Positions 7,832 to 26,595 of a DNA stretch of 64,000 nucleotides are shown here, one piece after another. The notes beneath the pieces were generated by a model. That model worked only from the letters and a program-made list of their open reading frames with translations. It did not search any database and had not been told where the DNA came from. Origin of the DNA: a virus; IMG/VR virus record IMGVR_UViG_3300044213_000107, positions 62,001 through 126,000 of that record. One strand, written 5' to 3'. The translations under genes and the position numbers were made by a program. How positions within the stretch are numbered: position 1 is the stretch's first letter; each line of letters opens with the position of its first letter.

Positions 7832-8102
7832 TGCCGGCCTCTTTTAAGATATCAAATACACTACCAATTTCAAACTCAACGGTGTTATCGTCGATTACTT
7901 GAATTTTTTTGTGTGTAAAAAAACTTCTCATATACATTTCTAAAAATTCCGCAACAGTCATTTCTGCAGTTTGAAAAAATTCAGAATTGAGTTTTTTATT
8001 TGTTGCAACCAAATAGTAGTAATTATCTCTGTGGTCCAAAGAAAATTCTATGGCCAAAGGCCGAAACTTTTGGTTTAATTGATCAACAAACTCAAAATCC
8101 AT
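7821..8102 (-). CDS. Hypothetical acidic protein
   Basis: 93 residues, acidic, mixed alpha/beta by eye, no motif recognised. Overlaps both neighbours by about 11 bases, so it belongs to the uvsE transcript. Confidence 0.6.
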   Translation of the reverse strand: MDFEFVDQLNQKFRPLAIEFSLDHRDNYYYLVATNKKLNSEFFQTAEMTVAEFLEMYMRSFFTHKKIQVIDDNTVEFEIGSVFDILKEAGSDE

Positions 8103-9120
8103 TTTTTATTCCGTATTCATATAATTCAAAACTGGCCAGGTTCTTGGCCTTGCTTTCGCACATGATATCAAACTGATCCCAAAAACTCAATGCCCACTGA
8201 TTCACTGGGCGATTCCAATAAAAGTTACTGTGTGCTCGTAGTTTTGCCTTTTTATAGCCTTCTGTGAGCAATTGTGCATGATCGGGCATTGTATCCGCAC
8301 AGTGATCAACTAAGACATCTTCTCGACTAACACTATAATGCATAGTAGGGCGTACGCCACGCCAACTATCAACCACTCGCTTAACGCTATCGCTATTTGG
8401 ATCAATGTAAACCCCTTCACGTATCCAATGATGATGTACATCAAGCACAATAGGAACAATATCGCTAATGGATAAGCAATCGTCGAGTCCATGTGTCATC
8501 TCCTCGTTTTCGATGGTGATTGTATTGCGGGCTTCAGGCGACAGTTTTGGATATGCCAACCTAATGCCGTTGGGGCCTTGACGGCCTGCGATGTGTACAT
8601 TGATTTTGAAGTCTTGGAACCGTTGTCCAAAACCCATCCAACGGGCCATGTCAACATGATATTCAAACTCCTCTATACTTCTGCGGACAATATCTGGGTT
8701 GTCACTAGCCAAGACAGTAAACTGCCCAGGGTGCATACTACAGCGAACACTCCGCAAGCGAGCCAGATCGCCGATGGTCGCAAAGTGTTTTGCACAGTAT
8801 TCACGAACGTCAGGCCGACGCCAAAAATACTGATATTCAGCATGAGTATACATAGGGAGTACGTCACTACTAAGCCGTACCATACGAAGGGATTCATCTA
8901 AGTTACCTACTCTTTCTACAAGTTTACGAACAGATTCGATATTGCCAGTCATCAAGTCCCAGAGTTTTTGCTCAGCGACTTCTCGAGTTTGGCGATTAAG
9001 CCAAGCCACAGTTGTAGTACCAGTGTTAAATTCTTTGGCGGTATCTGTTTGACGAATACCGTTGATTTGACTGGGACCGTCAATCCATTTACAGCAAAAC
9101 CCCATACGTTTAATGGTCAT
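8092..9120 (-). CDS. uvsE: UV DNA damage endonuclease, UvsE/UvdE family
   Basis: 342 residues, full length. It has the TIM-barrel family landmarks: N-terminal MGFCCKW, RLSSDVLPMYTH, SMHPGQFTVL, NVHIAGRQG, TIENEE and VLDVHHHW, carrying the His/Glu/Asp metal ligands. UvdE nicks DNA 5' of UV dimers and other lesions, starting alternative excision repair; DNA ligase in this window could seal the product. The ATG is placed six bases after a TATAAT box, so the mRNA is predicted to be leaderless. First of a three-gene overlapping operon. Confidence 0.92.
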   Translation of the reverse strand: MTIKRMGFCCKWIDGPSQINGIRQTDTAKEFNTGTTTVAWLNRQTREVAEQKLWDLMTGNIESVRKLVERVGNLDESLRMVRLSSDVLPMYTHAEYQYFWRRPDVREYCAKHFATIGDLARLRSVRCSMHPGQFTVLASDNPDIVRRSIEEFEYHVDMARWMGFGQRFQDFKINVHIAGRQGPNGIRLAYPKLSPEARNTITIENEEMTHGLDDCLSISDIVPIVLDVHHHWIREGVYIDPNSDSVKRVVDSWRGVRPTMHYSVSREDVLVDHCADTMPDHAQLLTEGYKKAKLRAHSNFYWNRPVNQWALSFWDQFDIMCESKAKNLASFELYEYGIKNGF

Positions 9121-9157: not shown

Positions 9158-10330
9158 TTATGTAAAAAGCATCCCACATAAATTTTCCATAATATTACCA
9201 GAATTTTTTTGCTTAGAAACCATTTTTGATAATCCTGGTTTGTTTCTTTCGATCAATTTCATTGAAATACTACTATCAAGAATTTGTTTAATTAAAATAT
9301 CTGGCGGTAATCTCAATAATGTTTTAAAAATTTCGATATCTCTCAACGGAGTCCATGTTAGTGTATTCCCAAGATGCCAATGCTGAAAATCATTTATATT
9401 AATATTACACAATTCCAACATCATTCTTCTATTAGACCAATTTGGATTTATTTTTCGTGTTTCGAATATTTTATAGTTTTCTGGTTTGTTAAAATATGTA
9501 TGTTGCATATAAGATATATTTTTAGGATCATTTAATAAATCAACCATAGAAATTTTATAATGTTTAAGAAACAAATCTACAGTCAAAGGACTACGCATCA
9601 TAAATTCGTCCCCGGGTGTGCCCGAAGTTATAATACATGGAGTAGTCCAATGATGAATTTGTTTATAGCCCCAATTATTTTTTAAAATTTCATATGAGTT
9701 TAACATCCAAAATTTATCATATTCAAAATGGCTATAGTTGCATAATTCATAATTATCTGTAAATCTTTGAAGATAACTATAAACTAACATACTATCAACA
9801 CCGCCACTTAAAAACACTCGAATTGGTAATTTATTATGTTGTATAAAAGAACGTGTTCGATCAATTAAAATTTTTTCTATAATTTTTATAGCATCTTCTT
9901 CGCTTAGACTAGTTTCGTTAAACACTCCGATAATATTAAATGTAGATATGTATGTTTTTATATCAGAATCTATACTTATTAAATTATTGGCCCAGCACAC
10001 TTTATCGTATTTTTGCAAATTAGTAACTTCAACAAATTCATTTACATAAACAGGAAAACTTCTATATCTATCAGTTTTTAAATGTATTAACTTATTATAT
10101 GGATCATATACAATGGCGCAAAAATTACCTGTAAAACTAGGTCGATCTTGATTTATTATCATATCTAATACTTGATCTATATCATAAGAATCAAGATATC
10201 CTTTATAGATAACTATTTTGTTATCAATATTTTTTTTGTTCCATCCAGAGTCGACATTAATATATAAATTGCCAACATTGTATGATTGGATGAAATTATT
10301 TTTTGGGTCGTGTGAAATTGAAAAAAACAT
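9158..10330 (-). CDS. Asparagine-synthase-like PP-loop protein
   Basis: 390 residues. Residues 175-180 (SGGVDS, in VFLSGGVDSMLVYSYL) form the PP-loop that binds and hydrolyses ATP to AMP in N-type amidating ligases. The first ~130 residues resemble a degenerate glutaminase-like domain (FTGNFCAIVYDPYNKLIHLKTDRY) but lack an N-terminal Cys, so free ammonia or another amine donor would be needed. The start immediately follows the stop of the radical SAM gene (TAA ATG), indicating a two-gene unit. Likely an AMP-forming amide or amine ligase acting on an unknown substrate; not a housekeeping AsnB. Confidence 0.75.
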   Translation of the reverse strand: MFFSISHDPKNNFIQSYNVGNLYINVDSGWNKKNIDNKIVIYKGYLDSYDIDQVLDMIINQDRPSFTGNFCAIVYDPYNKLIHLKTDRYRSFPVYVNEFVEVTNLQKYDKVCWANNLISIDSDIKTYISTFNIIGVFNETSLSEEDAIKIIEKILIDRTRSFIQHNKLPIRVFLSGGVDSMLVYSYLQRFTDNYELCNYSHFEYDKFWMLNSYEILKNNWGYKQIHHWTTPCIITSGTPGDEFMMRSPLTVDLFLKHYKISMVDLLNDPKNISYMQHTYFNKPENYKIFETRKINPNWSNRRMMLELCNININDFQHWHLGNTLTWTPLRDIEIFKTLLRLPPDILIKQILDSSISMKLIERNKPGLSKMVSKQKNSGNIMENLCGMLFT

Positions 10331-11434
10331 TTAGGTAATATTTAAAACTTGTGCCAAATAAGGATCGTAGTCAAGGAGAGATTTTCTAATAGGACTAAAT
10401 TGTACAATGTATTCTCTTAACTTTTCTATAGATGATGGATCTTGATTTTTGCCAATAAGTTGATAATAGTGGTCAAACTTTGAGTTAGAATTTGCTATAT
10501 CAATTAAAGAACTATTTTGAGGCCATTGAATTAAAGACATAAAACTTGGATTATTTAATGTATAAATTTTTAAATTTAAATTTAAAGAATTACAATATGT
10601 ATCAAGTTTGTGCAAATCATTTATATTTAACACACTTAAGGTACAATGTACCTGTAGATAATCTACTGTAGATTTGTAAAATTTTATATTACGATCTATA
10701 TCGTTCCATACACTTCCGTATCGTAACCACTCCGATTTCCGCCCAACTGCATCTAGACTTATAAACACGCAAACATAATTCCATATATTTTTTTCAAATA
10801 ATGTAGAATTAATTTTAGTTCCGTTAGTATGAAATTCAATCCTTGTTCTTTTAGATAAATTTAATTTTACTAACATTGATAAAAAATCTAATACAGATGG
10901 ATTATAAATAGGTTCTCCGCCGATTAGTGTCAGTGTAACAATATCGTGATAATCATAACTTTTAAGTATATTCTTTTTAAGATCAGGCCAATTCTTATTG
11001 AATTCTTTATTCGGATCAGTAAATGACACTGGTAGTATACCGATTAATCGTTTATGTTGAGCAATAACAGAACTCGAAGATTCGCCGCAAGTCCAGCAGG
11101 CTAGATTGCATATATTTCCAAATTTTAAATTCCACCTACTAGGCCATAATCCAAAATTTTTGTTTATAATAACCTGATCGTCAACTGCAGTTCTAAAACT
11201 ACTACCACTAAAAGATTCTTGTATCTTACAGCTGGCACATTCGTTTAACCAAGTCTGATTGTATAAACTATTTTTAAATGCTAATAGTCGATCATCCGCC
11301 CACCATTCTTCAAATGATTGATCTTCTAAACTATTGATTGTTGGAGATGCACTACAACAATTTCTAAATTGTGTATTTAATCCTGAAAATGCTTCAACGA
11401 ATGGAACCACACAAAATGGTTTATTAAAACTCAT
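10331..11434 (-). CDS. Radical SAM protein (twitch-type)
   Basis: 367 residues. Cluster cysteines C109-x3-C113-x2-C116 (GNICNLACWTCGE) and the GGEP motif at 171-174 mark a radical SAM enzyme that reductively cleaves S-adenosylmethionine. Extra Cys pairs lie near 26-27 and at 66/69 (NECASCK), suggesting an additional N-terminal metal site. The barrel is followed by a short C-terminal part, as in phage proteins annotated twitch domain-containing. Paired with the PP-loop protein downstream. Substrate unknown: peptide, nucleotide or sugar modification are all possible. A second, similarly organised enzyme lies at 25.5-26.6 kb. Confidence 0.88.
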   Translation of the reverse strand: MSFNKPFCVVPFVEAFSGLNTQFRNCCSASPTINSLEDQSFEEWWADDRLLAFKNSLYNQTWLNECASCKIQESFSGSSFRTAVDDQVIINKNFGLWPSRWNLKFGNICNLACWTCGESSSSVIAQHKRLIGILPVSFTDPNKEFNKNWPDLKKNILKSYDYHDIVTLTLIGGEPIYNPSVLDFLSMLVKLNLSKRTRIEFHTNGTKINSTLFEKNIWNYVCVFISLDAVGRKSEWLRYGSVWNDIDRNIKFYKSTVDYLQVHCTLSVLNINDLHKLDTYCNSLNLNLKIYTLNNPSFMSLIQWPQNSSLIDIANSNSKFDHYYQLIGKNQDPSSIEKLREYIVQFSPIRKSLLDYDPYLAQVLNIT

Positions 11435-12190: not shown

Positions 12191-12721
12191 TTAATCTTCT
12201 TCATTTTCCTCGTCTTCATAGTTGGCAATTGATTCCGAAATACCCATGAGTTCATCAAGGTCTTCGGGGATTGTCTCACGAACTTCTGAGCTGGACATAT
12301 CTTCGAGATTATAGTAATCATCGTCACCGTCTTCGTATTTGCCACAGTAGTTCATGCCACCTTCGTAATAGTAAGCAGAAACTGTGTAGCCTTGTTCCTC
12401 AAGTGCTCGATAAACACCCAAAGGTGGTGCCCAGGCACTGTCAAAGCCAAATGTAATTGAGCAACCATCACGCTGGTCGTCGTAGTCTATGGCATCGTAG
12501 GGCTCGATGTCCCACTTAGTGCCCCACTCATTGGTGCAGAAGTCATACCAGTTCTTGTAGCCGTGCTCTGCTAAGTTCCGGTTCTCTGACTCTACCAAAG
12601 CCTTCTGCTCCGGAGTATCATCACCGCCGACAACTCCTGCTACAATCTGTAGGCTCTCAGGCACTGGAATAGCAAAATTACAGAACTTGCCTGCGTTGAT
12701 AGCCTCTACCAATTTATACAT
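12191..12721 (-). CDS. DUF1281/YubB ferredoxin-like-fold protein (Api92-type)
   Basis: 176 residues. The segment NEWGTKWDIEPYD, then GFDSAWAPPLGVYRALEEQG and YYYEGGMNYCGKYEDG is the pattern of the DUF1281/YubB family found on plasmids and in phages. Biochemical role unknown. The last 40 residues are very acidic (ANYEDEENEED). A perfect inverted repeat lies directly before the start codon and no normal ribosome site is seen, hinting at control of initiation. Confidence 0.7.
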   Translation of the reverse strand: MYKLVEAINAGKFCNFAIPVPESLQIVAGVVGGDDTPEQKALVESENRNLAEHGYKNWYDFCTNEWGTKWDIEPYDAIDYDDQRDGCSITFGFDSAWAPPLGVYRALEEQGYTVSAYYYEGGMNYCGKYEDGDDDYYNLEDMSSSEVRETIPEDLDELMGISESIANYEDEENEED

Positions 12722-13896: not shown

Positions 13897-14193
13897 TTAG
13901 GACCAACGTAGCAAAAATGCCGTAATATCTTCAGGTCTTTTGAACTTCCACATATCAAAACTAACCCTAACCCCACACTCGTTTTTTTCCGACCACTGTT
14001 GTATTTCCACCATATCTTCTTCGCTAATTGCTACTTCAAACCCACGTGGTCCGGGGTTCCATGTTGCTTTAAGTTTAAAGCCTGGAAGTTGGTTCCATAG
14101 TATTTTTGGTTTTCTATTTTTCATACTCTTGATCCATTTTATAAAGTCTTGGTTCCAGTGTCTTATCACAGGATTGTATGTGCCGTGGTTCAT
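13897..14193 (-). CDS. LRWS-tail family protein, last of the array
   Basis: 98 residues ending AFLLRWS. It is the final gene of the coupled array and encodes the tail with CTA CGT TGG TCC TAA, which contains no ribosome site, so the tail is kept at protein level. The middle (GFEVAISEEDMVEIQQWSEK) has the strand-helix-W pattern of the family. ATG overlaps the preceding stop (ATGA). Function unknown. Confidence 0.7.
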   Translation of the reverse strand: MNHGTYNPVIRHWNQDFIKWIKSMKNRKPKILWNQLPGFKLKATWNPGPRGFEVAISEEDMVEIQQWSEKNECGVRVSFDMWKFKRPEDITAFLLRWS

Positions 14194-14453
14194 TGTCGTT
14201 GCCAGTGTTGTATAAATTGATCTAATTCCGCTCGAGTCCTAAAATAAAACTCATTATATCGTGTTCTACAATGACGCCGAAACTGGTACTCGCACCATCC
14301 AGCAATATCCTGATACACCTGCGGATCGTAGTTTTGGTGGAACAACTCGTCAGTTGTGGGATGTCTACGCCACAAGCCGGTATCTACCCTACAAAACCAA
14401 TACACTGGGTAAGGTGGGTGATCGATCTTTTCCTGACGAACAGTGAATCTCAT
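14190..14453 (-). CDS. Array protein with diverged tail
   Basis: 87 residues from ATG 14453, which overlaps the preceding stop as ATGA. Ends FIQHWQRQ instead of LRWS, but has the same layout: central WCEYQFRRH helix and final F-x-F-R-T-R-A-E-L strand-turn-helix. Probably a diverged member. Confidence 0.6.
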   Translation of the reverse strand: MRFTVRQEKIDHPPYPVYWFCRVDTGLWRRHPTTDELFHQNYDPQVYQDIAGWCEYQFRRHCRTRYNEFYFRTRAELDQFIQHWQRQ

Positions 14454-14689
14454 GACCACTTCAACGATACAAATGCCGCATCTCGTTCATTCTTAAGTTT
14501 TACTCCGACAAAGAAGTGTTGACTGATGCCGTCTTCTGCTATAGGATATGACTTCCAATCTAGATAAGGTTCGCCTATGTTGACCCACAACCAATGAAAG
14601 AATTCTTCCTTCTCGGGACGGTGCCATGCTACACTGGTAGCAACTGCATAAGGCCAATTTATTTTTTCTGGGTCTTTAAGGTATTTCAT
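14450..14689 (-). CDS. LRWS-tail family protein
   Basis: 79 residues from ATG 14689 (ATGA overlap with the previous gene). Ends RDAAFVSLKWS, encoded TTG AAG TGG TCA TGA. Upstream half is Trp-rich (AWHRPEKEEFFHWLW). Confidence 0.7.
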   Translation of the reverse strand: MKYLKDPEKINWPYAVATSVAWHRPEKEEFFHWLWVNIGEPYLDWKSYPIAEDGISQHFFVGVKLKNERDAAFVSLKWS

Positions 14690-14940
14690 TGTGATTTTAA
14701 TGCTAACCAAGTTACAAAGTCATGATCCAAACAATCTCGGCGAATCCAAACACCATCTGCGTCGGTGAACCATTTGCGCAGGTGCAGTAGTTCGTATAAC
14801 CCTGTGCGACCCAACCGCTGTTCGCATAGTTGGCCCAGAGCATTGCCCCACACTCCAGGATTGGTAGGATCGTCGATCTTAACCTTAAAATGTTGGTGGG
14901 TTTGTTTGTATAGTTGCATATAATACTCGGTTAACTCCAC
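14686..14940 (-). CDS. Array protein with degenerate tail
   Basis: 84 residues from GTG 14940, or 77 from an internal ATG. Ends FVTWLALKSQ, in which LALKS may be a decayed LRWS tail. No other motif. Confidence 0.55.
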   Translation of the reverse strand: MELTEYYMQLYKQTHQHFKVKIDDPTNPGVWGNALGQLCEQRLGRTGLYELLHLRKWFTDADGVWIRRDCLDHDFVTWLALKSQ

Positions 14941-15176
14941 TTTAATGTAAACAATACAGCATCTTCTTCGTGAGTAAAATGGAATCTGTAATATTTAGTA
15001 CGGTCTCCATCTGCACGAAAACCGTTCCATAAGCATTGCCAGCGGCCTCCACGATGATCAACAATGCTCCACCGCGGGCCAAATGTTGCCCGGCACCATT
15101 GCTCGGCCCGTCTACTCTTTTCTTTTGACACGTAAACAGTATACTCGAATAAAGGTGTACGCTTATAATTGCCCAT
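14931..15176 (-). CDS. LRWS-tail family protein
   Basis: 81 residues ending DAVLFTLKWS. A clear example of the family plan: RRAEQWCRATFGPRW (helix with W-C), a W-rich strand, then YYRFHFTHEEDAVLF before the tail. Begins directly after the stop of the 126-residue gene. Confidence 0.7.
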   Translation of the reverse strand: MGNYKRTPLFEYTVYVSKEKSRRAEQWCRATFGPRWSIVDHRGGRWQCLWNGFRADGDRTKYYRFHFTHEEDAVLFTLKWS

Positions 15177-15557
15177 TTAACGGTGTCTTAATAAATTTAA
15201 CAATGTTTGGTAAGCATGATATGCGTCAGCAACGACAGGATTAGCACTCACTATTCGTTCATCTTCTCTGAGTCGTGCTACAATTTCTCTTTCTTGGGCA
15301 TACGTAGTTTCCAGGTTTTCGTAATGCTTATACATACGAATCATATGATTAAATGTATCTACGGGAACGGTAACATTTACACATTCAACTTCTTCGATTT
15401 TAGTTGATTGGTAGAACGCCGCATCCGAAATTTCTCCCTGCCAGGGGTTATAATTTAGTTGGTATGATCGGGGGATTCGCCTATATCGCTGGCTAGTAGG
15501 ACGAACCTGCATTTCAAATTCATTTAAGAATCTTTGATCTTCTATGGGATTATTCAT
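15177..15557 (-). CDS. Hypothetical protein inside the array, no LRWS tail
   Basis: 126 residues, ending LLNLLRHR. Central helical stretch (YKHYENLETTYAQEREIVAR) suggests a short coiled coil. It interrupts the array and is not a family member by sequence. Confidence 0.6.
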   Translation of the reverse strand: MNNPIEDQRFLNEFEMQVRPTSQRYRRIPRSYQLNYNPWQGEISDAAFYQSTKIEEVECVNVTVPVDTFNHMIRMYKHYENLETTYAQEREIVARLREDERIVSANPVVADAYHAYQTLLNLLRHR

Positions 15558-15566
15558 TGTTTTAAT

Positions 15567-15824
15567 TTAACTCCAACGTAACACAAACCACATAAACTTT
15601 TGTTCATCTGTGATTGTGTACTCTTTGATATTAAGACGGGATGCACCAGGTGCAAATTTTAACTGAACTCCGCAATCAGTGGTCAAATAATACAAGTACG
15701 CATCTTTGTGTTGATCTCCGGTGACAATGGGCGTTCCTGGTGGGCAAACAAACGGTTGCTTTTCCCATTCAGTCTCCCACTGTCGCTGGCACATTTGATA
15801 CATTTCTTTTAGACCAATCGTCAT
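15567..15824 (-). CDS. LRWS-tail family protein
   Basis: 85 residues ending FMWFVLRWS. The tail is encoded TTA CGT TGG AGT TAA without a ribosome site; the next gene starts seven bases later. Starts ATGA-overlapped with the gene before. Confidence 0.7.
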   Translation of the reverse strand: MTIGLKEMYQMCQRQWETEWEKQPFVCPPGTPIVTGDQHKDAYLYYLTTDCGVQLKFAPGASRLNIKEYTITDEQKFMWFVLRWS

Positions 15825-16021
15825 GAATACCTCAATACAAATAGTGTGTACAGTTTTTCATCGTGCCACTTGACATTCAACTTATGATTCTTATTCTTGC
15901 TTTTACCGATTGTGGCTTTATAAGGCTCAAGACCTTCTTCAATAATGCCTTCGGGATCATTGCTGTCAATGAAATTCTTAAAATACCCAGGGGTTATTCT
16001 ATAGTATTGTTTCTTTATCAT
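15821..16021 (-). CDS. LRWS-tail family protein (LRYS variant)
   Basis: 66 residues from ATG 16021, ending LFVLRYS, codons TTG AGG TAT TCA TGA. Basic and short (KSKNKNHKLNVKW). Confidence 0.65.
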   Translation of the reverse strand: MIKKQYYRITPGYFKNFIDSNDPEGIIEEGLEPYKATIGKSKNKNHKLNVKWHDEKLYTLFVLRYS

Positions 16022-16398
16022 GACCACCTCAACGACATTATTGTAGCATATCTGGCGTATTTTTGTCTAACTCGTATAGTTAAACAATTGTCCGCCGCAT
16101 CGTTGCCGACAAATCCCCAATTCCAATCCCAACCCTGACGACCCACATTTTCTTCAAGCCACGGGCGGTAAAAATCGTTGGGGTCGGCACTTTCTAACTC
16201 TACACATACAGCACCTCCGAGATCGACCCATCTAGGATCCGTATGGTCTACTACTATTTTTCCTTTGGGCCAACGAACCTTGACAACAACTCCGGGCACA
16301 AAACTCCACCAGAGTTTTTCCCAAAACCTAAATCCCGTTGGGTAGTAATGTGTAAACTTACCCTTTATTCTAAATAGTTTTTTAATTTCCCACTTCAT
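16018..16398 (-). CDS. LRWS-tail family protein, longest member
   Basis: 126 residues from ATG 16398, ending TIMSLRWS. Has an added N-terminal barrel-like segment (GVVVKVRWPKGKIVVDHTD). Tail codons TTG AGG TGG TCA TGA provide the AGGTGG ribosome site for the next gene. Confidence 0.7.
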   Translation of the reverse strand: MKWEIKKLFRIKGKFTHYYPTGFRFWEKLWWSFVPGVVVKVRWPKGKIVVDHTDPRWVDLGGAVCVELESADPNDFYRPWLEENVGRQGWDWNWGFVGNDAADNCLTIRVRQKYARYATIMSLRWS

Positions 16399-16646
16399 GA
16401 CCACCTCAACAAAAATAAAGTTTTGTATTTCTCATCCTCAAATACCAGCGACACTGCGGGATCATCCCAGTAAGCACGGTAAGGCTCTAATACTTTATTA
16501 ATGTATTCAATGGTGATATCACCAACCCTATCTCGCGGTATATAATCCTCACTGGCGATTATATCCAATAAAAAATTCTGCCAGGCAATGGGGCATTGAC
16601 TGAGATTGTCACCTAGTTTAAGAGTTACTAACATTTTTATGTCCAT
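16395..16646 (-). CDS. LRWS-tail family protein
   Basis: 83 residues ending LFLLRWS (AGG TGG TCA TGA). Start could be ATG 16646, overlapping the previous gene, or ATG 16634 three bases after its stop. Confidence 0.65.
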   Translation of the reverse strand: MDIKMLVTLKLGDNLSQCPIAWQNFLLDIIASEDYIPRDRVGDITIEYINKVLEPYRAYWDDPAVSLVFEDEKYKTLFLLRWS

Positions 16647-16888
16647 TTTAATACAAACATGGTGTAGTCAGCATCATTATTGAATGTAACTCGGAATTTG
16701 TAACCATTATCTGTGTAAGTGTAAGACGCATTGATCTTAGCAAGTTCTTGCGTCATAAAACGTTCCACTATACCAGGTGGAGCATTTGGGGCATTAATGA
16801 ATTTACGCCACATATCCGCATACCAACGCTCAAAATAATTTCTGGGTTGGTAAGTGTTAATGTTTTGGTAATATTCTCTTACTATCAT
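16637..16888 (-). CDS. LRWS-tail family protein
   Basis: 83 residues from ATG 16888 (ATGA overlap; AGGTGG ribosome site inside the previous gene's tail). Ends DYTMFVLKWT. The segment YTYTDNGYKFRVTFNNDADY shows the typical strand-turn-strand before the tail. Confidence 0.7.
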   Translation of the reverse strand: MIVREYYQNINTYQPRNYFERWYADMWRKFINAPNAPPGIVERFMTQELAKINASYTYTDNGYKFRVTFNNDADYTMFVLKWT

Positions 16889-17136
16889 GTCCACCTCAAT
16901 ACAAACATAGTATGATTTGCCTCGCTGTCCCACCGCAAATACCAACCACCAGTTTTAGTCTGGATCAATCGGCCACCCTGCGGTTTTAATTCGTAGTTGG
17001 CCACTGTAACGGGATTCCAGTCATTGGCCTGGGCTTTGTCTCTACAATGAGTCCAGAATCGCTGAAAATATGCAGAGTACCAACCCAGTCCAGGATTTAT
17101 AATTTCTACTCTAAACTTGCCGTCTGTGTTCTTCAT
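16885..17136 (-). CDS. LRWS-tail family protein
   Basis: 83 residues from ATG 17136 (ATGA overlap). Ends EANHTMFVLRWT, tail codons TTG AGG TGG ACA TGA. Contains RFWTHCRDKAQAN, equivalent to the W-C helix of other members. Confidence 0.7.
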   Translation of the reverse strand: MKNTDGKFRVEIINPGLGWYSAYFQRFWTHCRDKAQANDWNPVTVANYELKPQGGRLIQTKTGGWYLRWDSEANHTMFVLRWT

Positions 17137-17378
17137 GACCATTTCAACTTACAAAGCATGGCATCTTTTTCATACAAGAACCAAACACTGCGGAGAAATA
17201 CAGCATAAGTGTGAGCGTCATAAGTTTGCTTGCACCATTTGCTGATTTTATCGTGTAGAGAATTATCATGAAGAGGACTACTATAGTCCACGCCCTTGTG
17301 CCAGCCAAACTCTTCGGCCTCGTAAGGCATCATAGGGAAACGATGCCGCTGACCTTCTACAAACATATATGCTTCCAT
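17133..17378 (-). CDS. LRWS-tail family protein
   Basis: 81 residues from ATG 17378 (TAATG junction). Ends DAMLCKLKWS; central DKISKWCKQTYD helix. Confidence 0.7.
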   Translation of the reverse strand: MEAYMFVEGQRHRFPMMPYEAEEFGWHKGVDYSSPLHDNSLHDKISKWCKQTYDAHTYAVFLRSVWFLYEKDAMLCKLKWS

Positions 17379-17527
17379 TATGCCCACCTCAATAAAAACA
17401 ATGTGTAATCTTGCTCGTCGTCGAAAATGATTGTTTCATACGTCCATCTCCAAGGGCCCTTGAGATTATCACAGCACCATAAGTAAATATCTTCGGTAGG
17501 AGCAAAACCATTGTATTGCCAACTCAT
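17378..17527 (-). CDS. LRWS-tail family protein, shortest member
   Basis: 49 residues, ending DYTLFLLRWA (TTG AGG TGG GCA TAA TG). Starts MSWQYNGFAPTEDIYLWCCD and keeps only the W-C helix, one strand pair and the tail, so it may show the minimal fold. GAGGTT ribosome site before ATG 17527. Confidence 0.7.
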   Translation of the reverse strand: MSWQYNGFAPTEDIYLWCCDNLKGPWRWTYETIIFDDEQDYTLFLLRWA

Positions 17528-17534
17528 GACAACC

Positions 17535-17783
17535 TCAAAAATCACCGCTCAAAAGATACATTGTCAAATCGGGACCCTCTACTCGAACACATTGGCTACT
17601 ATGCCGAATAGTGTCCCGACTATGAACTTGTCCCTTCCATTTGTAAGTCCATTCCACGCGGATTTGTTGCGGAGTAAATTTAACAACCTTGCCAAGTTTC
17701 ATGCCGCTGGCATAAGGTCCCGGAAAAACAACATAGTCCCCGACTGCTAACTCGCGATTTAGAAAATCTCTGAAAACTGTCAT
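17535..17783 (-). CDS. Hypothetical KOW/SH3-like small protein
   Basis: 82 residues. VGDYVVFPGPYASGMKLGKVVKFTPQQ looks like a small barrel of the KOW/SH3 kind. Not an LRWS protein. Its stop lies in front of a GAGGTT ribosome site used by the next gene. Confidence 0.55.
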   Translation of the reverse strand: MTVFRDFLNRELAVGDYVVFPGPYASGMKLGKVVKFTPQQIRVEWTYKWKGQVHSRDTIRHSSQCVRVEGPDLTMYLLSGDF

Positions 17784-17794
17784 TATAACACCTT

Positions 17795-18085
17795 TTATTT
17801 TGCGTTTTTAAACATGCTGAGCAAATAGCCTGCACGATTTAAGTCAAAATTCTCTTGACGATAATGCCAATTCTTTTTACGCTCTGCAATTTCAAGTGCG
17901 GCTACTAATTTATACTTTTCGTTAGATGTAGCGGTGCGAAGCATATTTGTCATTGTAATTATGTCTGCGGCATACTCTACCCATTTTAACGTGCTGTTTA
18001 TTTTGTCTCGTTTTATTATTGCACGTTCTGAGTTGGGGCTAAAATTTGAACTAGAATACTTGCGTGTAATTTGTGCAAAATTCAT
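17795..18085 (-). CDS. Hypothetical basic helical protein
   Basis: 96 residues, basic, helical; no family recognised. Own sigma-70 promoter at 18111-18139. Confidence 0.6.
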   Translation of the reverse strand: MNFAQITRKYSSSNFSPNSERAIIKRDKINSTLKWVEYAADIITMTNMLRTATSNEKYKLVAALEIAERKKNWHYRQENFDLNRAGYLLSMFKNAK

Positions 18086-18110
18086 GCTTTTACTCCTTTT
18101 CTATATGTAT

Positions 18111-18139
18111 ATTATAACAGAAAAGTCGTTATTCAGCAA
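18111..18139 (-). promoter_or_regulatory. Sigma-70 promoter TTGCTG-N17-TATAAT
   Basis: -10 at 18111-18116, -35 at 18134-18139, upstream of the gene at 18085. It starts the second transcript of the array region. Confidence 0.7.
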
Positions 18140-18169
18140 GTCAAAAAAGTAGTACTAAAGTATTACTTT

Positions 18170-18397
18170 TTAACTCCAACGCAAAGCAAATAATGTCAGG
18201 GTAGCATCATTGGGAATTTCTACGGTCATACCCTTGACCGTACACAAATGATCACTACACCATTGGTCTAATTCTTCAAGATGTTCGGCCCAAAATGATA
18301 TATCAGTCAGTAGAATCAAGATGCAGTCGGCGTGATCAACAAACTCCGATCCAATGACAAACCTGTTGCGTTTCCAATGCGCAAATATATCAGTCAT
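18170..18397 (-). CDS. LRWS-tail family protein
   Basis: 75 residues ending LTLFALRWS (TTG CGT TGG AGT TAA). It ends a sub-operon and, like the last array gene, uses CGT rather than AGG for Arg. Includes LEELDQWCSDHL. Confidence 0.7.
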   Translation of the reverse strand: MTDIFAHWKRNRFVIGSEFVDHADCILILLTDISFWAEHLEELDQWCSDHLCTVKGMTVEIPNDATLTLFALRWS

Positions 18398-18621
18398 AGA
18401 TATTTTAGCACAAAAAACGATTCTGCTTCGGCATTGTAAAAATCAAGATGCACTGTTTCGGTGGTTCCGGATTCTTCGGTATATGTTGTGTGTAATCTAG
18501 GAGTAAATCCCAACTCACGACGCATGACTTCGCGGATCAAGAACACACTAGGTTTCCACTGATATTCTTCTTGTAATTGGTTACGAATACGAGTCCAATC
18601 TTTAACGCTTAAAACTAACAT
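18394..18621 (-). CDS. LRWS-tail family protein (LKYL variant)
   Basis: 75 residues ending AESFFVLKYL. ATG 18621 lies inside the previous gene. Confidence 0.65.
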   Translation of the reverse strand: MLVLSVKDWTRIRNQLQEEYQWKPSVFLIREVMRRELGFTPRLHTTYTEESGTTETVHLDFYNAEAESFFVLKYL

Positions 18622-18865
18622 GACCTTGCCACTTTAGTTGATGAAATGTATAATCTTGTTCTTCTAAGTCGCCATAAACTGTACACCGATAACCATATGT
18701 TGTCATGTCTGGAGATATTTGATAACTAGGCTGTCCAGTAGTATGAGCCATACACCACTTACCGTAGTCAGTCTGTTGCCAATCCCAAATCGGTGAGGCG
18801 CAGTAAATTTCCGGGTCTTCAACATCACCCATGTTGAACTGATAGAAAATAGTTCTTATCGCCAT
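18602..18865 (-). CDS. LRWS-tail family protein with C-terminal extension
   Basis: 87 residues; the tail motif LKW is followed by seven to eight extra residues (QGHVSFKR) that overlap the next gene. Body: YGKWCMAHTTGQPSYQ then YTFHQLKW. Confidence 0.65.
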   Translation of the reverse strand: MAIRTIFYQFNMGDVEDPEIYCASPIWDWQQTDYGKWCMAHTTGQPSYQISPDMTTYGYRCTVYGDLEEQDYTFHQLKWQGHVSFKR

Positions 18866-19026
18866 TTTAATGCAAAGTAAGTGGCCTGCAGTGGATCTTG
18901 AAACTCAAAAGTCCAGTACCAGCTAGGGAATTGATTTTTCACTGAAAAAGCATTGTGTCCAAACTCAGATTGGCACCATAATATGGCATCGTGTACATTA
19001 TTATTAGCAAAAGTCACAGAGTTCAT
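18856..19026 (-). CDS. LRWS-tail family protein, first of the array
   Basis: 56 residues from ATG 19026 (MNSVTFANNN), ending TYFALKWR. An in-frame TTG farther upstream would place the -10 box in the coding region. The ATG is exactly six bases after TATAAT of a perfect promoter, so the array transcript is predicted leaderless. Confidence 0.7.
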   Translation of the reverse strand: MNSVTFANNNVHDAILWCQSEFGHNAFSVKNQFPSWYWTFEFQDPLQATYFALKWR

Positions 19027-19032
19027 ATCTAT

Positions 19033-19061
19033 ATTATAACACAAAAGTGTTTAGTTGTCAA
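19033..19061 (-). promoter_or_regulatory. Perfect consensus promoter, leaderless-phased, heading the array
   Basis: TTGACA 19056-19061, 17 bases, TATAAT 19033-19038, six bases, ATG 19026. Confidence 0.85.
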
Positions 19062-19470
19062 AATCTTTAGCCAGTGTGTCCCAGACCTGTTGTTTTTCTT
19101 TGTATTCTTTAAGCAACATTTCATAGTGTTTTCTTGCGGCCTGTAACTCCTCCCAATCATGTTCAAGTTCTGGATTGCTGGCCAGTTTACTTGGTATGCG
19201 TAGTAATTCTTTGATTTCTTTTAAAGTTTCCGTTAAGCTTTCGCCGTTTATAACAATATCTGCATCTTTGCCAGTTAAGTCAAGTTTTCCGCTTTGACTG
19301 ATTAGTGCCGGTGTAGCAGAACCCCAGTTGGTGGAAGTAGAGTAATAAGGTGAATTAGGTGTAATGGCTAACCCTGCACCACCGCCAGTACCACTGCCAG
19401 TAATAACATAAGGAATGTTTGACAATGATATATTGCCCGATGTGCCAAATGTTACATTTGCGTAAGTCAT
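19051..19470 (-). CDS. Structural-type protein with coiled-coil tail
   Basis: 139 residues. The Gly/Thr-rich N-half resembles fibre segments (ITGSGTGGGAGLAI), then LDLTGKDADIVINGESLTETLKEI and a charged helix (ELQAARKHYEMLLKEYKEKQ) likely forming a coiled coil. The DADIVINGESL motif recurs in aquatic T4-like phages. Virion role suspected, unproven. Confidence 0.6.
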   Translation of the reverse strand: MTYANVTFGTSGNISLSNIPYVITGSGTGGGAGLAITPNSPYYSTSTNWGSATPALISQSGKLDLTGKDADIVINGESLTETLKEIKELLRIPSKLASNPELEHDWEELQAARKHYEMLLKEYKEKQQVWDTLAKDFDN

Positions 19471-20306
19471 AGAACTATTTCGTATAATTTGGAGTCAAAC
19501 TCCTCAGCACGTTTTTCATAGCCTTTGTATCCACGTGGGTTACAGACAACGCGAGTTTGGCCAATCATATAATCAAAGGTGTCATGAGTGTGCCCGTGAG
19601 TCCACACTTGGATTTCTGGGTGATCCAAAATAAACTCGCTCAAATCACTACTGTATGCTCCGTTCATGAGAGTATCACTGGCATAACGTGGATGTGTGCT
19701 TAGTTTGCTGGGACTATGGTGTGTGACAACCACAACTGGCCGTGCACCGGCGTTGTTTGCTAATGCTTGACTAAAATACGCTAGGGTCTTTTCATGCTGA
19801 GCCACGGTATATTCCGGAGTCATTCGGTGATACATGTTTGTACTTTCGTTGAACATGGTAATCTGACGATAGTCATTCATAGCACTGGCCACGTGATACA
19901 TAGTCAACGCATCACGCCGATTCATGTCTGTCCACAATGTTGCCCCAAGGAATAACACACCATCAATTTCTAGACTTTCGTTTTCCAACAGGTGTACATT
20001 TTCGGGCAGTTGTTCCCGAATGTGATCGTAGGTTTTTTGAACTTGGAAACGATAGTGTTCGTGATTTCCCATAACTAAAATAGTTTTACGATATTTTTGA
20101 CTGCATTCTTCGAGTAAAAATCTGTAAAACCGATCGGGTCTTTGGTCAGCACGCTCGTGCTCCAACAATACCATGTCGGGGTTATACCAGTTTTTCTTGA
20201 TGCTTTTGGCTTCGCATAAATCGCCGGAGATGATCAAAACGTCACCACCTGGTAACGTTAGGTCAGCAAAGTCGATGTGTAGGTCTGAGATTACATTTAT
20301 ACGCAT
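19467..20306 (-). CDS. Calcineurin-like metallophosphoesterase
   Basis: 279 residues with all blocks of the family: SDLHIDF (7-13), ISGDLCE, MGNHEHY, VVTHHSP and THGHTHD. These bind two metal ions and hydrolyse phosphoesters. Substrate unknown (cyclic nucleotide, RNA end or protein phosphate are all possible). Stop-start overlap with the next structural gene. Confidence 0.85.
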   Translation of the reverse strand: MRINVISDLHIDFADLTLPGGDVLIISGDLCEAKSIKKNWYNPDMVLLEHERADQRPDRFYRFLLEECSQKYRKTILVMGNHEHYRFQVQKTYDHIREQLPENVHLLENESLEIDGVLFLGATLWTDMNRRDALTMYHVASAMNDYRQITMFNESTNMYHRMTPEYTVAQHEKTLAYFSQALANNAGARPVVVVTHHSPSKLSTHPRYASDTLMNGAYSSDLSEFILDHPEIQVWTHGHTHDTFDYMIGQTRVVCNPRGYKGYEKRAEEFDSKLYEIVL

Positions 20307-25476: not shown

Positions 25477-26595
25477 TCAATTATCGCCCATTAATTCGTA
25501 TAGTTCTGGCAAGTACTCTCGCCAATCCATACCGTGATAATTTCGTGTATGTTCCATGTATCTGTAAAATTTTTTTCTACATTGTAGATCAAATGCACTA
25601 TTATCTATATATGCTTTTAAAAAATGTAAATCATTGTCATTTAAATAGCTAGATATTTTATCTTTTTCTTGTTCTGTTAAAATTGAATATGTTAAATATG
25701 GTGGATAACTCACAAAACCTATTTCATTAGTTAAAGAGATGCCAAGATTTTTCATATATTCGATATATTCTACTACACCAAATAAATTTAATATACTGTG
25801 TGTTGGATGAGATGCTAGATTAAATCCTTGAGATTTAAAATCAATTAAATTTAGATTGAATTTATTCCAGTCAGCACCTGTTCGTATAAATTCAAATTTT
25901 TTCTCAATTGCTTCAAAACTAACAACTAAATTAATTTTATTAAATTTTTTTAATATCGGAATATCTTTATAACTTACTGTTCCGTTTGTGTTAATATTTA
26001 AACAAGTATCGGGCCCTGCTGAATCTAATACCTTTTCTAAAAAAATACTTAACTTATTCATATTATACAACGGCTCTCCACCTATTATATTAACAAATTT
26101 TAAATTTTTAAAATCATCATCAGTGTAATCATAAACTGCAGATGGCCAAACATCTAAATTTTCAATTGACACACTAATGTCGTAATTATAAATTGTATTC
26201 GGTAATTTTAAAGCTTCGGGTATCCAACTACTGCTAGATGACGGGCGGCAATATCTACATTGGATATTACAATATCTTCCTGTATCAACAGTTAATTGCA
26301 TAAAATCTTGTACATTTGATTCTGTAGAATATAAATCTATGTAATTGGCTAAACTTAATCGTTTGCTGAAATTTTTCCCAGGGTGTAGAATTTCAGCATT
26401 ACGACATGTAGTACAATATTTTTCTGGCCATTCACCTTGGTCAAACGACTGTTTTATTTCATTGTAAACAGGACTTTGCAGCATTTTAGTGCGACTTGTT
26501 ATATTGGGTATGGGTTGAAAGCAGCACGGACCTTGGAATTGAGCATCGTATGCGTGTTCGAAATACCAGCAACGTATAGGTTCTTTTTGATTCAT
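25477..26595 (-). CDS. Second radical SAM protein (twitch-type)
   Basis: 372 residues. C109-x3-C113-x2-C116 (GRYCNIQCRYCRP) at the same positions as in the first radical SAM protein of this window, then NIIGGEPLYN. Two extra Cys pairs (GPCCFQ at 24-25 and CTTC at 61-64) suggest an N-terminal auxiliary metal site. Clearly paralogous to the gene at 10331, but without a PP-loop partner; it is followed downstream by the rubrerythrin unit. The late element five bases upstream predicts a leaderless mRNA. Substrate unknown. Confidence 0.88.
   Translation of the reverse strand: MNQKEPIRCWYFEHAYDAQFQGPCCFQPIPNITSRTKMLQSPVYNEIKQSFDQGEWPEKYCTTCRNAEILHPGKNFSKRLSLANYIDLYSTESNVQDFMQLTVDTGRYCNIQCRYCRPSSSSSWIPEALKLPNTIYNYDISVSIENLDVWPSAVYDYTDDDFKNLKFVNIIGGEPLYNMNKLSIFLEKVLDSAGPDTCLNINTNGTVSYKDIPILKKFNKINLVVSFEAIEKKFEFIRTGADWNKFNLNLIDFKSQGFNLASHPTHSILNLFGVVEYIEYMKNLGISLTNEIGFVSYPPYLTYSILTEQEKDKISSYLNDNDLHFLKAYIDNSAFDLQCRKKFYRYMEHTRNYHGMDWREYLPELYELMGDN

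Follow-up and report, generated by a model that had tools for sequence, protein, structure and literature searches.

What purpose do seventeen small genes serve for a phage when most of them end in nearly the same few residues? The question is raised by an array at positions 13897-19026, on the minus strand, of a 64,000-base window (the whole stretch of DNA analyzed here), which covers bases 62001-126000 of a 260,723-base IMG/VR virus record. The record represents a giant freshwater phage, in whose genome T4-type structural and replication genes were recognizable by our own reading of the long open reading frames (ORFs). The proteins of the array are referred to below as the LRW cassette family, which is defined here. 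The chances appear about even that the array is an early operon of exchangeable cassettes, encoding small, tryptophan-rich proteins of a single fold that bind host or defence proteins.

A protein family and its predicted fold

A preliminary description of this DNA had proposed about 17 genes in the interval, combining variable bodies with a common plan of a W-C helix, aromatic strands and an F-x-L-[RK]-W end. The tandem set and its shared plan were confirmed, and all of the listed ORFs are present, but three unrelated genes lie among the 17 members. In the window, 14 ORFs of at least 40 residues carry an L[RK][WY]x terminus, whereas 0.26 would be expected after shuffling of each ORF, and tryptophan makes up 5.6-6.3% of the family versus 1.8% of the window's long frames. 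The codons of the shared end vary from gene to gene (AGG, CGT, AAA, AAG; TCA, AGT, TCC, ACA), and the motif is thus maintained at the protein level. Thirteen of the 17 members match the full-length family hidden Markov model (HMM), which serves as the test of membership, at E<0.01. Three of the exceptions to the full-length model, 15821, 18394 and 14686 (genes are named by their lower coordinate), have clear orthologs in other phages, with E-values of 1e-16 to 1e-24, and the fourth, 14190, has a weak match alone (0.004). Gene 14686 had been considered decayed, a view contradicted by conserved orthologs at L018:16051-16293 and in L019.

A family profile, one of the checks that had been suggested, matched 239 of 332 candidates at E<1e-3; reversed sequences gave no HMM match, even at E<10. 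The impression that no described family covers these proteins also held. Scans of 122 members against Pfam, PHROG, NCBIfam and PADLOC returned no family, every match being weak and arising from one member alone, and among solved structures the best profile search gave an E-value of 0.094 and the best Foldseek matches to the PDB 0.4 and 0.5.

Two members of the window were modelled with AlphaFold 2 (AF2). For the first gene of the array (18856-19026), 86 aligned sequences yielded a model with a predicted local distance difference test score (pLDDT) of 86.9, in which a strand (residues 3-6) is followed by a helix (11-22), two strands (27-31 and 38-42) and a second helix (45-55). The 81-residue product of 14931 shows the same order of elements at lower confidence (pLDDT 73). 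The predicted domain is therefore of the form beta-alpha-beta-beta-alpha, 55-65 residues in length, and its last helix, with the consensus [DN]E-x-D-A-T-x-F-x-L-[RK]-W-[SA], contains the L[RK]W end. The preliminary description had treated this end as a fixed, separate tail, and had named unrelated folds with a disordered tail as the outcome that would count against it; in both models the fold order is the same and the end is helical, within a single domain.

Conservation points in the same direction. In a profile computed on matches that were not picked by the tail pattern, Trp29 is conserved at 95%, Phe54 at 81%, Phe63 at 92%, Leu65 at 97%, Arg or Lys66 at 87% and Trp67 at 86%. The Phe, Leu and Trp of the end are as invariant as the core Trp and Phe, which argues that the end is not a separate tail. 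Across 74 independent pairs of close orthologs, Trp29, Phe54, Phe63, Leu65 and Trp67 are altered in 1-3% of comparisons and exposed positions of helix 1 in 33-43%; the loops and the beginning of helix 2 also vary. The models and this pattern make it highly probable that the members share one fold, with the end as its terminal helix and not a free docking tag.

The alternative that bears most directly on the end is that it serves as just such a tag, bringing otherwise different bodies to a single shared partner, for instance a phage scaffold, a protease or RNA polymerase. Leu65, Arg/Lys66 and Trp67 are indeed the most conserved positions of the end, and on a helical wheel drawn from the model Leu65 faces away from Phe63 and Trp67, so that it could form a second exposed, conserved face. 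Yet the end belongs to a helix of the predicted domain and is conserved alongside the equally invariant Trp29, Phe52 and Phe54, and some members extend about 20 residues past it, which a terminal tag would not easily tolerate. A docking tag is thus unlikely.

Relatives, exchange and selection

Relatives were gathered through a phosphoesterase search that yielded 80 loci, most with the same kind of ORFs adjoining, and the same proteins are found in about 40 related IMG/VR contigs. A search for similar arrays in other phages had been suggested, and they occur in related contigs and isolates alike. Whole-record searches gave 36, 35, 35 and 28 copies in four contigs, the last of these a contig of 69 kb. 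Among isolates, Sinorhizobium phage Phosso has 34 copies (42 at E<0.01), Paride 4 and Atu_ph07 4-6; in the first 14 kb of Phosso, many separately annotated genes, all labelled hypothetical, are family members. Overall, 21 of 25 records were positive and two unrelated phages negative, whole-record searches of S-CREM2 and Kikimora found no copies, and among related phages copy number ranges from 0 to 36. A scan of bacterial genomes with one subfamily gave no relative. A search for literature on such an array found nothing, and the papers on Atu_ph07 and on a related jumbo phage of Sinorhizobium are silent about any family of paralogs. Among 50 unrelated proteins interspersed in the arrays of relatives, one is a peptide deformylase (Pfam 1.6e-38), and the other matches were to unnamed PHROG families and, weakly, to UvsX. 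The window's own genome holds a lone extra family member at record positions 162988-163149 (L008:3973-4221), about 82 kb from the array.

The preliminary description had suggested that the proteins diversified within the array. Most of the window members instead have orthologs elsewhere, often with best E-values of 1e-15 to 1e-42, and none has a significant paralog in its own array; recent local tandem duplication was rejected on these grounds. In a census of 302 members from 47 loci, from which two twin phages (those of L018 and L019) were set aside, the best match lay in another phage for 280 members and in the same phage for 21. The 302 members form 95 clusters at E<1e-8, and the larger clusters mostly hold one member per phage. 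By sequence comparison the paralogs represent at least 95 subfamilies, ancient and common to different phages, the larger of them mostly single-copy in each phage. The order of the cassettes is mosaic from phage to phage: when an ortholog is compared between two phages, a different member comes next in 768 of 894 cases.

Between the twin phages, the pooled ratio of nonsynonymous to synonymous substitution (dN/dS) is 0.166 for the family and 0.073 for neighbouring genes. The orthologs are under purifying selection, with a dN/dS about twice that of their neighbours, and strong positive selection was not seen. Reciprocal best matches between the twins account for 28 of 37 and 27 of 33 members, which leaves roughly a fifth to a quarter of them specific to one lineage. 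As judged from these sequences, the genes have been kept and frequently exchanged while evolving faster than their neighbours, and a local burst does not account for them.

Promoter, tail DNA and possible targets

A perfect sigma70-like promoter, TTGACA-17-TATAAT (19033-19061, minus strand; 12 of 12 positions, with an extended -10), lies ahead of the array. Its TATAAT ends six bases from the first ATG, which places the expected start of transcription at the A of that ATG and would make the first gene leaderless. The TATAAT-ATG spacing ahead of the first array gene is 5-6 bases in many relatives too. The near-perfect sigma70-like promoters of these phages separate into two groups by distance to the ATG, at 5-6 and about 18-37 bases. 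The short spacing, counted from the end of TATAAT, was observed in L014, L018, L024, L026, L032, L040, L042 and L047, and may mark a set of leaderless phage genes that differs from those with the longer spacing. The promoter suggests that the array is transcribed early, by unmodified host RNA polymerase, and the surroundings are of an early type: a metallophosphoesterase gene (19467-20306) bounds the array on one side, with an ATP-dependent DNA ligase gene further upstream, and in Paride nucleotide-metabolism genes lie near the family members. On its other side the array is bounded by small genes near 13.8 kb.

These features bear on the possibility that the proteins are virion or internal-head components, many variants of which are needed for injection or packaging. 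Phages are known to inject sets of internal proteins. In Atu_ph07, moreover, about 78% of the 131 virion proteins are of unknown function (PMC6102473). Against such a role stand the strong host-type promoter, neighbours that are replication and nucleotide genes and not structural ones, and the wide range of copy number among related phages, and it is judged quite unlikely.

The early-type promoter, the non-structural neighbourhood, the variable copy number, the mosaic exchange, and the combination of a fixed core with a variable surface together suggest a host- or defence-directed role, which, by analogy with host-takeover modules, might be given an even chance; an anti-defence function is plausible. 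Each subfamily would then be a small intracellular binder of a different host or defence protein, which is the least certain step of the proposal. Its single tryptophan-rich domain would keep a constant hydrophobic core, with variation permitted in the loops and on the exposed side of helix 1.

The targets might instead be nucleic acids, or the proteins might be small modulators of transcription or translation that expanded in one lineage. The predicted fold weakly resembles RRM and ferredoxin-like domains (template-modelling score 0.5-0.6), and Bacillus phage G offers a precedent with about 35 copies of a zinc ribbon (PMC7824862). The mean net charge of the proteins, however, is -1.8, no Foldseek match reached E 0.001, and the conservation profile lacks a metal-binding set: the sole semi-conserved Cys stands at 49%, and the two Cys/His pairs of a zinc ribbon were not found. 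Such roles therefore seem distinctly improbable.

The tails appear to carry information at the DNA level as well. Most genes of the array share ATGA, or a few nucleotides, with the gene that follows, and 93 of the tails ending in L[RK]Wx have the ATGA overlap. In these overlapping tails Arg is encoded by AGG in 53 of 70 cases; the corresponding counts are 5 of 25 where tails do not overlap and 73 of 920 within gene bodies (p 8e-38). TTG is the Leu codon in 63 of the 93. Arg is also preferred over Lys in the overlapping tails (p 2e-6), so that the choice of residue is itself affected by the DNA signal. The overlapping codons are TTG-AGG-TGG-TCA-TGA, and within the resulting DNA, TTGAGGTGGTCATGA, a GAGG sits five bases ahead of the next ATG, a normal Shine-Dalgarno spacing. 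It is thus very probable, from the codon usage, that the tail codons double as the Shine-Dalgarno site and start overlap of the next gene. That the tail is solely such a nucleotide signal, with the LRWS peptide as a by-product, would account for these biases but is very improbable indeed, and a pure ribosome-binding-site artefact was rejected, because Leu and Trp persist with other codons where there is no overlap (AAA TGG; CGT TGG AGT TAA; CTA CGT TGG TCC TAA in the last gene) and the preceding Phe, Asp-Ala and strand are likewise conserved.

Between the twins, 12 of 20 ends of homology blocks lie no more than 25 bases from the stop codon of a family member, whereas random placement would give 14.5%. 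Where one twin carries an extra gene, successive blocks overlap across the tail. These breakpoints are consistent with cassette exchange at the tail, and recombination through the short conserved tail DNA, which would help cassettes to move in and out, may be the cause or may equally well not be.

Several points weigh against the reading of the array as an early operon of exchangeable binders. Breaks at gene ends are expected from selection for intact genes alone, without tail-mediated recombination. Early expression is read from the shape of the promoter alone. The predicted template-modelling score of the models is about 0.65. The family shows no defence-related or toxin fusion that might reveal its function, and no family frame of 165 residues or more. 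Finally, ortholog dN/dS is well below 1, with no sign of an arms race at the level of whole genes. The fullest form of the proposal, in which tails act as both translation start and recombination joint, so that phages trade from a pool of 95 or more single-domain proteins, every one of which disables its own host or defence component, and retain their expression, is tentative and on balance doubtful.

Even so, the family is large, lies outside all of the libraries used and occurs in isolates and metagenomes, and dozens of hypothetical genes per genome become a single question. The dual-coding tail would show concretely how densely packed early genes could be swapped with translation kept intact, and, should the proteins prove to be counter-defence binders, their pool would amount to a library of small inhibitors on one scaffold.

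The array gene by gene and comparable systems

Several genes of the array begin downstream of the starts given in the ORF list. In the direction of transcription, the first gene encodes 56 residues ending in FALKWR (HMM 1.3e-12, orthologs in 22 loci). It is followed by 18602-18865 (87 residues, LKW with a C-terminal extension; HMM 0.0028, orthologs in 18 loci, best 1.6e-29), 18394-18621 (75 residues, divergent end FVLKYL; HMM not significant, orthologs in 27 loci, best 4e-23) and 18170-18397 (75 residues, FALRWS; HMM 2.7e-8, orthologs in 15 loci). Two of the unrelated genes come next, encoding proteins of 96 residues (17795-18085, with its own TTGACT/TATAAT promoter) and 82 residues (17535-17783).

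The fifth member, 17378-17527, encodes 49 residues ending in FLLRWA (HMM 3.8e-11, orthologs in 5 loci), and the sixth, 17133-17378, about 81 ending in CKLKWS (HMM 6.3e-8). Members 7 and 8, both of 83 residues and with ATGA overlaps, lie at 16885-17136 (FVLRWT; HMM 0.0004, ortholog 8e-22 in L014) and 16637-16888 (FVLKWT; HMM 3.6e-6, ortholog 3e-31 in L019). The ninth, 16395-16646, has 83 residues, or 79 from an ATG at 16634, and ends in FLLRWS (HMM 1e-4, orthologs in 4 loci). Member 10, 16018-16398, is the longest at 126 residues, with a long N-terminal part and the end MSLRWS (HMM 0.004, orthologs to 4e-42); members 11 (15821-16021, 66 residues, FVLRYS; HMM 0.5, ortholog 1.4e-24 in L079) and 12 (15567-15824, 85 residues, FVLRWS; HMM 0.006, ortholog 6e-17) precede the third unrelated gene, which encodes 126 residues (15177-15557).

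The last five members are 14931-15176, the second protein modelled (FTLKWS; HMM 1.8e-14, subfamily in 21 viral loci); 14686-14940, of about 84 residues, whose tail, WLALKSQ, is divergent but conserved (orthologs 4e-16 in L018 and 2e-14 in L019); 14450-14689, of about 79 residues, with the end VSLKWS and an ATGA overlap (HMM 0.003); 14190-14453, of 87 residues ending in FIQHWQRQ, which is possibly degenerate or very divergent (HMM 1.4); and 13897-14193, of 98 residues ending in FLLRWS (HMM 7e-7, orthologs in 9 loci).

Elsewhere in the window, 8092-9120 encodes a UvdE-type UV endonuclease (Pfam 9e-40), and by eye two radical-SAM-like ORFs with Cys clusters and an asparagine-synthase-like ORF were noted at 9158-11434 and 25477-26595, with several similar Cys-rich ORFs along the genome. 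An Api92/YubB-like protein at 12191-12721, which matches DUF1281_C below the cut-off (E 0.002), carries a [WF]C..WGTKW motif, more fully [WF]C-x-x-E-W-G-T-K-W, that resembles WC-E-E-N-F-G-x-R-W of the array. Homology, for which similarity of the profiles across the domain and a SAW-x-PP motif were required, was not supported: with hhalign the profiles align with a probability of 1-4% over 14-17 columns, and only the short motif is shared.

The best viral Foldseek matches are uncharacterised phage proteins. Those in BFVD from uncultured Caudovirales (A0A6J7WGT2, A0A6J5L5R8, A0A6J5LHB1 and others) resemble array members with a probability of 0.9-1.0 and at similar length, but with E-values of only 0.01-0.05, and neither a function nor an array has been described for them; judged by predicted structure, they probably belong to the same family.

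In the host-takeover module of SPO1 and the early accessory clusters of T4, small early genes are likewise tightly packed behind strong host-type promoters, but they do not form one protein family and have no shared tail. The Bcl-2-like family of poxviruses offers a parallel at the level of the protein, since one small fold has been copied many times, with little sequence identity and different host targets, and the array likewise consists of many divergent copies of one small fold; poxviruses, however, are eukaryotic viruses and the folds are unrelated. In another jumbo phage, Bacillus phage G, a zinc ribbon has undergone a lineage-specific expansion (Iyer et al. 2021, PMC7824862), so that a single small domain is also present in dozens of copies. 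That domain is unrelated, and the LRW cassette family differs from it in having no zinc ligands and in its tightly packed cassettes, its shared and apparently dual-coding tail, and its mosaic exchange between phages.

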